Shown: piece by piece, positions 27,926 through 61,326 of the stretch
Layout of the letters: every line of letters starts with the position of its first letter
How positions within the stretch are numbered: position 1 is the first letter of the stretch
Assembly: GCF_964019385.1 (NCBI RefSeq)
Contig: NC_088654.1
Span: forward strand, 18,812,169-18,876,168
Direction of reading: 5' to 3'
Length of the DNA: 64,000 nt
From: Sycon ciliatum
Lineage: Eukaryota; Porifera; Calcarea; Leucosolenida; Sycettidae
Made by a program: the position numbers and the translations under genes
Notes under the pieces: generated by a model
The model's input: only the letters and a program-made list of their open reading frames with translations
Told to the model about the DNA's origin: nothing
Database searches by the model: none

Positions 27926-28001
27926 ATGATGCCACTGGTACTGATGCTGGTTGCCATGGCGATGGTGGCGCAATGTCAGAGTGCCACAAGCGGTGCTGCT
28001 C
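27926..28001 (+). CDS. Cassette gene, exon 1 (signal peptide)
   Basis: The exon encodes 25 residues plus one base. MMPLVLMLVAMAMVAQCQS is a compact signal peptide with a likely cleavage site after QCQS, and ATSGAA follows. It ends in phase 1 at GCTC|GTAAGTG, matching the phase-1 acceptor of A1. An upstream in-frame Met at 27791 exists, but that segment overlaps a MITE tip and is less signal-like, so the Met at 27926 is chosen. Confidence 0.68.
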
Positions 28002-28323
28002 GTAAGTGTCAAGCAGAACTAGTACAGGTCCGGAGAAAGAAAAAAATGTCATGGTTCGCGTCAGACTCGGTTTATCTATATACATGTAGATAAAGAGAAG
28101 GGGTGAAAATAATAGCAGATTGGCCTGGAATAATTTATGCTGTCATAAAATGTTCTCTTTCTGTACACAGTACCCTCAGTTCCGATACTATTCACTGATG
28201 AGCGGAACACGAAAATCGATTTTGAATAACATAAAAATCCTTTAAAATTCCATGAACTCGTTGTTGTCTGGCCATGTCTGCATCTATTATACTCTTTATT
28301 GCACTAATAATTTATACCGGTTA

Positions 28324-28671
28324 CCGTATTTCCACAAATAGTAGGCCGGTCTACTATTTTTCAACCTCGTCCTAACCCGGCCTTATAATCGAGGACGGTC
28401 TTGTATTCGAGGACGGTCTTTTATTCTTTCAACCCAGTTTGACCCCGGTCTTCTATTTCTCGCCACACAGTTTTACCCCCGTTCTTCCATTTTCTTCTAC
28501 ACAGTTTGAGCACGGTCTTCTATTTTTAACACAAGAACAAAGACTCATTTAGTAGGCCCGGTCTTCTAATCGGAGATGGTCTTTTATTTTCAATCGCCCC
28601 CTGCCCCGGCCGGCCTTGTATACGAGAAAGGCGTTGTATACGAGGACGGCCTTTTATTTGCGGAAATACGG
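28324..28671. mobile_element. MITE, CCGTATTTCC TIR, TA flanks
   Basis: CCGTATTTCCACAAATA at the left and TATTTGCGGAAATACGG at the right bound 348 bp with TA on both sides. The interior contains GGTCTTNTATT repeats. It lies in the first intron of the cassette gene. Confidence 0.82.
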
Positions 28672-28764
28672 TATATTACTGGATGTTGGTAGTTATTTTT
28701 TATCCCGCTTGGGTTTTGTGGCATTCTGCATGACAATTTGCGGTTTCCCCCAAAAAAGGTACTA

Positions 28765-29107
28765 GAGTAGAACCCGGGTTAAGGATCCACCTAACTCTGC
28801 GCGGACAAAGCTGGACTCAGTTGTACAGGGATGGGCAAAACGGTGTGCAAAACGACTTCTTGTGAGTAGAGGGACCTCGGAAAATAGTTTGAAGCGAAAA
28901 AAGTTACGGCTTCCTCGGAAACCGACGGGGGACCCCCTTGGGCCGGAAATTAAATCCCAGTATAAGGATCACCCGCACAATGTACATGCCAAGTGACCCC
29001 CCCCCCCCCCCCCGGGCTCCGAAGGATCACCCGCACAATGTACGTGCCAAGTGACCCCCCGGGCTCCGATCCCTAATCCGGTGTGACCCTTAACCCGGGT
29101 TCTACTC
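28765..29107. mobile_element. MITE, GAGTAGAACCCGGGTTAAG TIR
   Basis: GAGTAGAACCCGGGTTAAGG and CCTTAACCCGGGTTCTACTC bound about 343 bp with TA flanks. An internal ~40-bp unit (GGATCACCCGCACAATGTAC...CCGGGCTCCGA) is duplicated around a C homopolymer. Confidence 0.82.
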
Positions 29108-29481
29108 TACTACAGAAGGGATTTATTCACAAAACCAACGACGTGCCACCGCAGTAGGCTAGGGGTGTGAAAGTTGGCAGTTAAGATCCGGAGTTTCGGA
29201 GTTGGAGAAGAATTAGTCTATAAAAAGCCTTAAACTCACAGGATGCAAGCCAAGACTGGCTGCCATTTTCTGGAGTATATTGGTAGGTGATCTTTACTGC
29301 TGCACCAGTGGTCACAACACAGCCTGCACATCAATATCTACAGCTTGCTGCTCTGACTGAACTGCTGATGTCTGAAATAAATATACATGCATGTACAGTT
29401 GTACACTGTACATCAATGAGTTCTCTGATTCTGAGAGCGATTACTTGTCAAAGAAAGAGCGAAATTCATTGATCCTATTAC

Positions 29482-29506
29482 CTGATGAGGGCCAAGTGCC
29501 GAAACG
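29482..29506 (+). other. Hammerhead-like motif in a dispersed repeat
   Basis: CTGATGA, a GGC/GCC stem and GAAACG follow the core order of a hammerhead ribozyme. The same layout occurs at 56662-56687 (CTGACGA) and 62670-62694. Helices I and III cannot be confirmed by eye, and one extra base separates CTGATGA from the stem. Confidence 0.35.
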
Positions 29507-30464
29507 TTTTGAAATAACGGAACTGGTTCGGATATGCAGCGCTATGGGAATGTCCACCCGAATTCCTTATTTCAGACAGAGTGAGCCAGTTGTCGAATAT
29601 GAGGTGTATTTGTCCCCCCCCCCCACCTGTTTAGGGAGTTTTCTATCATTTTTCGTGCCAAGCGCAAAGAGGCCATAAACGTGTACTGAGAGCATGCAGC
29701 TGTGATCATGGCATGATCTTAGACTATTACCTGTCCTCTACGTTCCCCAAACAACTGACTGGCCTCTTGTTGCCGTTATGGGTTATAGTGTTTATGTGAA
29801 GGACCCTCCGAAAGTGACTGGAGAGTGGAGATGTGACACTATTCTTCAGAGTTAAGGATACACAAGGTAGCATTGCCAATGTTGCGAGGCTGAAACACGG
29901 AGCTTCACGGTAATTTTGTCACGATTTATTTTATGGATTCTCCAAAGGCCTTTAATGGCCTAAATCGAGGGAGTCTCCGTCAGCAGCTTATGAAACTTGA
30001 AGAAGAAGCTGAGGGGGAAAAAGAAAAGAAAAAGGAAAACCGCGGGACGGGGTAGTGGTAATAACATGACTAGGACATGACATCGATTCTCTACGTTCAC
30101 CAGGGCTTCACACAGCAATGATGATACTACCGGTACTTGTAGCTGTCCTGCTATATCTACTTGTGTCCTTTGGCTCTGCCCTCGTGGTACATGTAGTGAG
30201 CGCTTTTGCAACGATTTAGAAACACAAGGCGAAACAACAGAGACCAAAGTTTTGTATGAAGCTCTGCACCCCGGTGCATTGAGCACTCTTTCGAGGACCA
30301 CACCCAACTTTCCGTGTGAGACCAAAGATCTTTCTCGTTACTCATCAGACTAAAACTGGGGATTTAGAAACATAATATTATTATTATTATGTACATGTAA
30401 CTGTTGATAGCTAAGCTAGGATACATGTGAGCATCGCCGTGTTGGTATTAGCCCTTTGCGTGTA

Positions 30465-30652
30465 CAGTCAGACCTCGCATAGCCGCACACATCCGTTTTC
30501 CAGAAAAATATCCGGATAGGCGAGGGAACCGGATAATCGAACACACATACTGTATATGTGCATGGCATATGCTGTAAATCGGTAACCAACGATTTTCTTC
30601 CGGATGGCGAGGGATCCGGATAAACGAGGGCCGGATAAACGAGGTCTGACTG
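30465..30652. mobile_element. Palindromic Tc1/mariner-like MITE, CAGTCAGACCTCG family
   Basis: CAGTCAGACCTCGC...CGAGGTCTGACTG with TA on each side, 188 bp, with internal TCCGGATA repeats. Other copies are at 47791-47966 (intact) and from 39827 (longer, with another element inserted near 40232). Confidence 0.85.
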
Positions 30653-59336: not shown

Positions 59337-59485
59337 CTACGACAGTGTTGTGCAATGGGTTTAACGTAGTTTTCCACACACAGCAAGTGTCCTATTGGCC
59401 TGCGTCTCGCGAATGCCGGCAACAGAACTTCCGCATTCTACAGCATGGCGAATATCGCAAGTTGAAAGGAACGGAGTGTTTTAAG
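59337..59485 (+). CDS. Cassette 4, exon A4
   Basis: 149 nt, phase 1/0. TTVLCNGFNVVFHTQQVSYW, ASRECRQQNFRILQ and KGTECFK. The cysteine spacing is preserved. It lies beside two tandem arrays in the introns (37-bp at 59060, ~26-bp at 59514). Confidence 0.8.
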
Positions 59486-59513
59486 GTAGGTGACACAGTG
59501 CCGTAACCGTTTT

Positions 59514-59612
59514 CCTAGATTTTGTCAGGAATTCTCCTAGATTTAGGCAGGAATTCTCCTAGATTTTGGCAGGAATTCTCCTAGATTTTGGCAGTTCTCC
59601 TAGGTTTTGGCA
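59514..59612. repeat. ~26-bp tandem repeat
   Basis: TCCTAGATTTTGGCAGGAAT, four to five units, shortly after exon A4. One further unit is near 60395. Confidence 0.85.
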
Positions 59613-59769
59613 GAAATTTGCATCGTATGTAGTTTAGCTATACGAAGAGTATAATATAAGCTCCCAAGAGTGTGCAACTCTGCATACAGAGTCTCCGACA
59701 GCGAAAACTCACATCATATGTTCAAAGATAGAATCGGATGGAGAGCCGATGATCAATTTATAGTAAAGA

Positions 59770-59965
59770 AAAAAGGACCAAGGAAGTTGGAAGGCTGTTG
59801 GAGTGTGCACCCAAGACGTGCTAGAGCTGATTGCCAGTCAGTCGTGGGACGTCAGTACTGTCGGTCAGTGTCATGCAATGTTATCGCATGAGCTGATTGT
59901 CAAGTAACTGGTGGTGTTAGTGGACACTATAGTGTAACTTGTAGTTCCTGGGTCTTTTTTCGTGT
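59770..59965. mobile_element. MITE of the 'ggaccaagg' family
   Basis: GGACCAAGGAAGTTGGAAGG to CTTGTAGTTCCTGGGTC, with inverted ends. The right end is shared with 27762-27812. Confidence 0.6.
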
Positions 59966-60419
59966 ATGTCCAAACTTCAAAATACGATTTGTACCGCATA
60001 CAACGAAGGCTGTCACGCACTCAATCCGAATATCTACCGTAATCTGCCTGATGACTCGCATACGCTGAGTACTAGAGGTTTCTGCGGGGGGGGGGGGGGG
60101 GGGGGGGGGTGCCACTTTTTGCCTCCTTTGGTCGGTATTATACGGCCTGGAAATGTAGAGCGGAAACAGTACACCATGTGACGTGAGTTTCACTGTCGGC
60201 AAACCCCATACTAGAACAGTGTCCAGAGTGGCACACTTTTTGGAGCTTATGTCCTCTTTGTGATACTAGTATCAGTTTTTCTAGAAGGAAAAGGACATAT
60301 GGATACGAGTTAAGAGTAACTCTCCATCACTGTAACTGAATACTGTCTGCCTGTGGTATTGCTGGCTCAACATCCGAGTATCCATTTTTCTCTTAGATTT
60401 TGGCAGGAATTGGGACAGT

Positions 60420-60520
60420 GTGTGTGTGTGTGTGCGTGCGTGCGTGCGTGTGTGTGTGTGTGTGTGTGTGTGTGTGTGTGTGTGTGCGTGTGTGTGCGCG
60501 CGCGTGCGTGCGTGTGTGTA
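60420..60520. repeat. (TG)n/(CG-TG) microsatellite
   Basis: About 100 bp of TG with CG substitutions in the A4-B4 intron. Confidence 0.92.
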
Positions 60521-61187
60521 GTGTAGTCATACTACTTCAAGTAGTTCCGTATCAGTTTATTAACCTGGACTGAGGCCAATTCTCTTCAGCGAGCGTCTGC
60601 TAGCAGAAGGCATACATCGCAAAGGTCGTTGAAAGATAGCTTTCGGCGCTGATGCAGTACTGGGACATCGCTGGGGTAGCGCTCTAAGCTTGTACACGGT
60701 TGAGAACCTGGTTGCCAAGTGTTAAAAGCAACGAGATAGCCGCGGATGCAATGTGGGTTGTAAAACTGAAGAGACGTTGCATTTTCCGTTCTGTTTGCAA
60801 AACGAGGGCTGTGTAGTGTAAAAGCAATAGTATGGTTTCTAACACCTTTAAAAAAAAAGGGGTGAGACCGTGAAAGTCATAGTTTAGTGAAATTCTTGAA
60901 TCCTGACTATATTGATGAGTTTAAAACAGGAGCTTGAAGTTAGTACCTGATCTTGCAAACAAACAAAAAAACTAAATAATTCACTGAGAAATAAGCGACG
61001 CTGACACAATAACTTTATCATAGCAATCAGCAGAATCAGCGAAGCGGACATTGGACGTAGTAATCAACAAGAATAAAACATGGATTATAAAATCCTAAAT
61101 TCACTGAAAATGTGCATTCACCACAAAGTAACTGTCAAAACTAGGTGTTGCGTAATCCGGTGTTCTTTTCTCTGCCTCCTCATCCAG

Positions 61188-61326
61188 ACCGCAATTTCAA
61201 GTGTTCGTTCGTCGGGAGTTGTAACATTGTTGACGAGGAGAGCCGTTTTAGATATTGTCAAGGATACCGCTCAAAAAGACTTCAGCAAAGGAATGTTTCG
61301 AGCGGATGGGTTCATCTGCGCAAGAG
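61188..61326 (+). CDS. Cassette 4, exon B4 (Trp replaced)
   Basis: 139 nt, phase 0/1. SVRSSGVVTLLTRRAVL, then FRADGFICARG. The Trp conserved in B1-B3 is Leu here. It ends at AGAG|GTAAGT. No C exon is found in the remaining 2.7 kb, so the gene probably continues beyond the window. Confidence 0.76.

Follow-up and report, generated by a model that had tools for sequence, protein, structure and literature searches.

A Sycon ciliatum gene with a repeated five-exon block and the predicted multi-CTLD type I receptor that it encodes

We rebuilt, from raw sequence, a gene on the plus strand of a 64,000-nucleotide stretch of DNA from the calcareous sponge Sycon ciliatum (contig C13, 18812169-18876168; termed the window, whose positions are used throughout). 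Most of the gene consists of recurring exons, termed A to E. An earlier reading made from the letters alone (the sequence-only reading) had described exons A-B-C-D-E as recurring three times and starting a fourth time, in what looked like an extracellular recognition protein that grew by duplication of the whole cassette. All 19 exons that it claimed have AG/GT borders and the phases 1-0-1-1-1-1, and their lengths are exactly as claimed (149 nt for all four A exons; 154, 139, 139, and 139 nt for B; 201, 210, and 195 nt for C; 273 nt for all three D exons; and 177, 177, and 180 nt for E). The order is real too, but the headline left out an EGF-like exon between B1 and C1, and the 19 junctions that it counted are, within the window, 18 internal junctions and one open donor. 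The gene runs past position 64000, with two further exons in the next 10 kb (L002). The exons are listed below; C-type lectin-like domain is abbreviated CTLD, and assignments follow the exon model unless another basis is given.

27893-28001, plus strand: first exon, signal peptide (hydrophobic stretch); phase 0-1; start codon uncertain, with in-frame ATGs on both sides
30884-31032, plus strand: A1, first half of CTLD 1 (exon model, EukProt peptide)
36353-36506, plus strand: B1 (long form), second half of CTLD 1 (exon model, EukProt peptide)
36983-37066, plus strand: EGF-like exon, 84 nt, phase 1-1 (EGF_CA E = 0.014, under the Pfam cut-off)
39404-39604, plus strand: C1, four-cysteine module (exon model, cysteine count)
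41114-41386, plus strand: D1, compact CTLD (homology to D2)
42150-42326, plus strand: E1, four-cysteine module (exon model, cysteine count)
46879-47027, plus strand: A2, CTLD first half
47399-47537, plus strand: B2, CTLD second half
48381-48590, plus strand: C2
49515-49787, plus strand: D2, compact CTLD (structure predicted for D2 alone)
50632-50808, plus strand: E2
53113-53261, plus strand: A3, CTLD first half (structure predicted within the cassette)
54094-54232, plus strand: B3, CTLD second half (structure predicted within the cassette)
55369-55563, plus strand: C3
56900-57172, plus strand: D3, compact CTLD (homology to D2)
57446-57625, plus strand: E3
59337-59485, plus strand: A4, CTLD first half
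61188-61326, plus strand: B4, CTLD second half, the window's last exon (stem and transmembrane/tail exons follow in L002)
L002 2438-2479: stem exon, 42 nt (places part of the C-terminal residues of peptide P0001, below)
L002 3146-3466: final exon, transmembrane helix and tail, stop codon (places part of the C-terminal residues of P0001)

The spliced window model is an open frame of 3319 nt (1106 codons), with no stop or frame break across the 19 exons. The frame of the first exon has ATGs at 27791, 27893, and 27926, among others. The sequence-only reading started at 27926, and the EukProt peptide starts (MAMVAQC) further inside the exon.

A search with the full-length protein gave two matches at E ≤ 10 among 7912 candidates, which we will term P0001 and P0002. 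P0001 is EukProt scpid27762 (1205 amino acids). This peptide model covers all 19 exons of the window, the first one incompletely, and because it agrees with the spliced model at all but one of 1085 common residues (F/V in C3), we conclude that the exons belong to one product, as the sequence-only reading had it. The scpid identifiers are the Compagen set for S. ciliatum. Passages of two papers use these identifiers for S. ciliatum and mention a transcriptome (PMC6526912), and name a coding-sequence set, SCIL_T-CDS_130802, with proteins SCIL_P-CDS_130802 (PMC4265532). As the identifiers are linked to a transcriptome, the gene's splice junctions have probably already been observed in cDNA.

The last 120 residues of P0001 were not found in the 64-kb window and lie in L002. 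The best hydrophobic stretch of P0001 is VSSGLIGAAIGCGLLILLV at residue 1116, with KKRR close behind and a tail of 71 residues after it, so we predict a type I single-pass membrane protein. The modules would thus lie outside the membrane in one protein, as proposed, but the protein is predicted to be anchored rather than simply secreted. The tail ends in VQL, and a motif scan of it found no YxxPhi, ITIM, dileucine, or NPxY.

The introns of the gene contain several other elements. A 631-codon open frame in the A1-B1 intron (34157-36052, minus strand) is reverse-transcriptase-like (LINE-type, judged by eye) and includes an in-frame CA repeat. There are satellites with 16-bp and 21-bp units (38282-39250 and 51192-51613), and two introns share 78-nt copies that are 92% identical (46404-46481 and 61411-61488), probably a dispersed repeat.

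The copies of each module are clearly related to each other. Each of the 13 copies of A+B, C, D, and E has exactly four cysteines, in the same positions except for small length shifts, so the cysteine plan seen by the sequence-only reading stands; four copies in the paralogue P0002 follow it too. When each copy was compared to the window by tblastn, D copies matched each other at E values of about 1e-31 to 1e-34, C copies at 1e-17 to 1e-23, copies of the E module at 1e-8 to 1e-17, and the short A and B exons at about 5e-5 to 2e-11, while unrelated matches in the window had E values of 0.04 or weaker. (B1 neither matched the other copies in the window nor was matched by them.) These similarities are far above chance. 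Within the window, D copies are 54-58% identical to each other, C copies 51-61%, E copies 36-48%, and A+B copies 27-46%. Profiles of the modules matched nothing besides the 17 A-E exons among all window open reading frames of at least 35 amino acids on both strands (E ≤ 1); as the profiles were built from these same exons, only the lack of other matches is informative. Comparison of the modules with each other by hhalign found no link. Between copies, dN/dS was 0.24-0.60 in 14 of 15 comparisons. These values are rough, as dS reached saturation in the remaining comparison and exceeded 1 in several of the rest. On average, the copies are under purifying selection.

What are these modules? The sequence-only reading did not recognise the combination and suggested a structure prediction for one cassette. 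Structure prediction gave a CTLD fold for D (D2, modelled alone) and for A+B (A3-B3, modelled within a cassette); in the cassette model, pLDDT was under 50 for both C and E (under 40 for C). So the combination is in part recognisable, while the C and E modules gave no Pfam match. With the other copies assigned by homology, the protein would have seven CTLDs. CTLDs have a disulphide from helix 1 to the last strand plus a second conserved pair. The cysteine spacing of A+B and D is compatible with the first pair, and the second pair would be placed unlike that of the canonical domain. No lectin family of Pfam matched at E ≤ 5 or E ≤ 10, and the CTLD sequences are highly diverged. C-type lectins that bind sugars in a calcium-dependent manner carry EPN/QPD and WND motifs, and none of nine copies has these. 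The weak matches to the AB profile (n = 4) are all in the mannose receptor group, with the macrophage mannose receptor at the top.

The EGF-like exon scores 16.1 bits against EGF_CA in P0001 (cut-off 27), and the corresponding unit of P0002 scores 25.1 bits (E = 2.1e-5, same cut-off). C may be described as a small four-cysteine module that is faintly Sushi-like. Sushi (CCP) domains have a four-cysteine pattern with a tryptophan near the last cysteine, and the tryptophan and final cysteine are conserved in six of six rows of the C alignment, two of which are pieces of P0002 that were chosen by eye as Sushi-like. The C exon has no Sushi match in Pfam. Profile comparisons to PDB were unconvincing: for C, Notch (E = 0.069) came ahead of factor H (E = 0.32), and for E there was one match, TIMP-2 (E = 1.4). 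A phmmer search of cassette 2 against PDB gave no match.

The cassette also occurs elsewhere in the genome. P0002 is S. ciliatum LOC135827361 (875 amino acids; 39% identical over 28% of the full-length query). Its order is C-D-E-A-B-EGF, that is, one cassette, and its exons C, D, E, and A can be read on contig C12. Its D is 43-47% identical to the D copies of our gene. Counts from genome searches with D2 and C2 are lower bounds. D2 matched at least 11 places, three in the gene and eight elsewhere (four on C11, one on C12, and three on C3). C2 matched at least 41 places at E ≤ 10, 22 of them with E ≤ 1e-3, including three in the gene. Profiles read C-D-E and then A at two other loci (L028 with L035, and L034), D-E-A-B-EGF at a locus on C11 (L026 with L036), D-E at three (L027, L031, and L033), and D alone within the 3.3 kb examined at two (L030 and L032). 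Exon borders at these loci were chosen from nearby AG and GT(A/G), with several options each. Where readable, two loci have an A exon of 149 nt and a third has one of 146 nt, the single B read is 163 nt, D is 273 nt at three loci and 270-282 nt at the rest, and E is mostly 174-177 nt. The D-bearing loci on C3, C11, and C12, including LOC135827361, share the order C-D-E-A and similar exon lengths with our gene, and B followed by EGF is seen in the P0002 protein and at the C11 locus, as in A1-B1-EGF. P0002 differs in having one cassette and extra N-terminal modules. The D copies of our gene are spaced by 8.4 and 7.4 kb, whereas among the matches listed elsewhere no two D exons lie closer than about 26 kb (26.7 kb for the nearest two).

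Clusters of C-type exons also lie at places with no D2 match nearby (C13, 8.37-8.39 Mb; C11, 17.17 Mb; C3, 36.76-36.93 Mb; C12, 14.2-15.6 Mb; and C8, 31.0-31.9 Mb), although the matches are weak on C8 and for many on C12. The C module seems to be common to other Sycon gene families.

These loci bear on which block was duplicated. Whole-cassette duplication is supported by the one spanning peptide and by the modules' occurring singly and in the same order elsewhere, but we think that the unit is better read as C-D-E-A-B, present three times behind one A-B-EGF. We favour this unit because of the EGF in common, the long form of B, and the pattern of identity between AB copies, and not because of trees. 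A long B followed by EGF is found in P0002 (whose A+B is of AB1 length, 100 residues versus 95 for AB2-AB4), at the C11 locus, and at the front of our gene, while AB2-AB4 have a short B and lack an EGF. Identity is 35-46% among AB2-AB4 but 27-29% between these and AB1. The simplest history would be an ancestor with C-D-E-A-B-EGF, of which the front A-B-EGF was kept, and then three C-D-E-A-B blocks. Two observations count against this unit: identity to P0002 does not single out AB1 (29%, versus 25-30% for AB2-AB4), and trees of single modules are weakly supported (best bootstrap 64).

We found no further modules in the flanking 210 kb by tblastn, and profiles gave two weak, low-complexity-looking D matches there, in L019 (E = 0.03 and 0.12); 50,712 of the 274,000 bases scanned (window included) are N, including the whole 30 kb immediately to the left of the window. 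A protein search with a single cassette gave no match at E ≤ 10 among 962 candidates. A region search with P0002 returned itself alone among the 8000 candidates scored and missed P0001. Such a search thus overlooks moderately diverged sequences and says nothing about absence from other sponges.

We propose, with a probability of roughly 60%, that this is a 21-exon gene for a type I receptor of one Sycon family, in which duplication of C-D-E-A-B gave a multivalent CTLD ectodomain for recognition or adhesion. The protein would be arranged as signal peptide - CTLD(AB) - EGF-like - 3 x [C - CTLD(D) - E - CTLD(AB)] - stem - transmembrane helix - 71-residue tail. It would have arisen through two or more in-frame duplications of the block. 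As the introns that bound the block are uniformly in phase 1, whole blocks can be added without a frame shift. Small cysteine-rich spacers would hold seven compact CTLDs away from the cell, and this arrangement in front of a membrane anchor suggests multivalent binding in trans. Their ligands would most likely be proteins or glycans bound many at once, on neighbouring cells, matrix, or microbes. Binding would not use the classical calcium-dependent sugar site: the loss of the calcium motifs favours protein ligands or calcium-free glycan binding over classical lectin activity. The analysis itself gives the gene model, the one spanning peptide model, the duplication, the CTLD folds predicted for D2 and A3-B3, and the predicted membrane anchor. 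Surface location, multivalent binding, and a role in adhesion or immunity are what we infer from this layout; the earlier suggestion of a recognition protein is plausible, and we weigh adhesion and immune recognition about equally.

First, the protein could be a structural cell-cell or cell-matrix adhesion protein, for example of choanocytes or around spicules, with the repeats lengthening an arm. We consider this possible, if short of even odds. The short tail, the long modular ectodomain, the EGF-like unit, and the 15 N-glycosylation sequons in residues 1-1100 would all fit. Eggshell mineral, too, contains CTLD proteins, and struthicalcin is among the 50 listed structure matches. However, the main text of a 2025 paper on Sycon biomineralisation has no word starting with "lectin" (PMC12419799).

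Second, and more tentatively, it could be an immune-type pattern receptor whose array of CTLDs binds to the surfaces of microbes and leads to signalling or uptake. The family is multi-copy in the Sycon genome, and the multi-CTLD type I layout resembles that of the macrophage mannose receptor. Mannose receptor family members (MRC1, PLA2R, DEC-205) are type I membrane proteins with N-terminal cysteine-rich and fibronectin II domains before an array of several CTLDs, and the four weak AB matches lie in this family alone. In contrast, the sponge protein alternates its CTLDs with C and E modules, A1-B1 comes first behind its signal peptide, and P0001 has no Pfam match to the N-terminal cysteine-rich or fibronectin II domain at E ≤ 10. 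Passages of a study of another sponge, Aplysina aerophoba, report that a C-type lectin gene and Sushi genes respond to microbial stimuli (PMC6208332). On the other hand, the sponge protein's tail has no endocytosis or other uptake motif and no ITIM/ITAM, the CTLD copies lack a calcium/sugar motif, and selection between copies is on average purifying, not positive.

A bolder proposal, which we find improbable, is that C and E are undescribed folds that, together with stripped-down CTLDs, define a calcareous-sponge-specific superfamily of self/non-self or microbe receptors, in which valency and reach change by gain or loss of phase-1 cassettes and this gene is a tripled member. Finally, it is very improbable that at least two neighbouring genes, or the pieces of a non-functional relic, were wrongly joined: the large introns with retroelements and satellites would suit it, and the gene's unity rests on a peptide model, but one peptide covers everything, no stop or frame break interrupts the 19 exons, and dN/dS is below 1.

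The proposed receptor can be compared to two other known systems. Selectins have a calcium-binding lectin domain, an EGF unit, Sushi repeats, a transmembrane helix, and a short tail. The sponge protein likewise starts with CTLD, EGF-like, and perhaps Sushi-like units and ends in a transmembrane helix and a short tail, but it has seven CTLDs, the calcium-site motif is absent, and C is no more than faintly Sushi-like. Proteins of CTLD group XIV have one CTLD, at the N terminus, and then Sushi-like, EGF, and mucin-like regions; they too are transmembrane and combine CTLD and EGF units, but the sponge protein has seven CTLDs interleaved with C and E. Thrombomodulin, CD93, CLEC14A, and CD248 are listed as members in a passage on this group (PMC6852297).

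The protein sequence is already public, without a functional name. Literature on Sycon or sponge C-type lectins, CTLD, Sushi, and EGF, mostly the starts of abstracts and passages, gave no account of the gene or the cassette. Multi-CTLD type I receptors are known, so what we did not find described is this arrangement, and it is not a new class. The gene is a clean natural example of exon-shuffling rules in a sponge: the modules are symmetric and phase 1, one CTLD is split, and a cassette that is single at other loci is threefold here. It also suggests that compact CTLDs that standard profiles miss are built into sponge receptors, so that the number of lectin-type receptors in calcareous sponges may have been underestimated.

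Two other elements lie in the window, both on the minus strand. Exons at 1225-3978 likely belong to another membrane receptor: two stretches match F5/8 type C (discoidin) under the Pfam cut-off (E = 8.9e-6 and 8.4e-5), and a hydrophobic segment that ends in basic residues was recognised by eye. A Bel/Pao-type retroelement at 9210-14858 has a 1677-codon open frame with Peptidase_A17 (E = 3.2e-39), RVT_1, and DUF5641, and the same peptide occurs at both of its flanks, as long terminal repeats would give.

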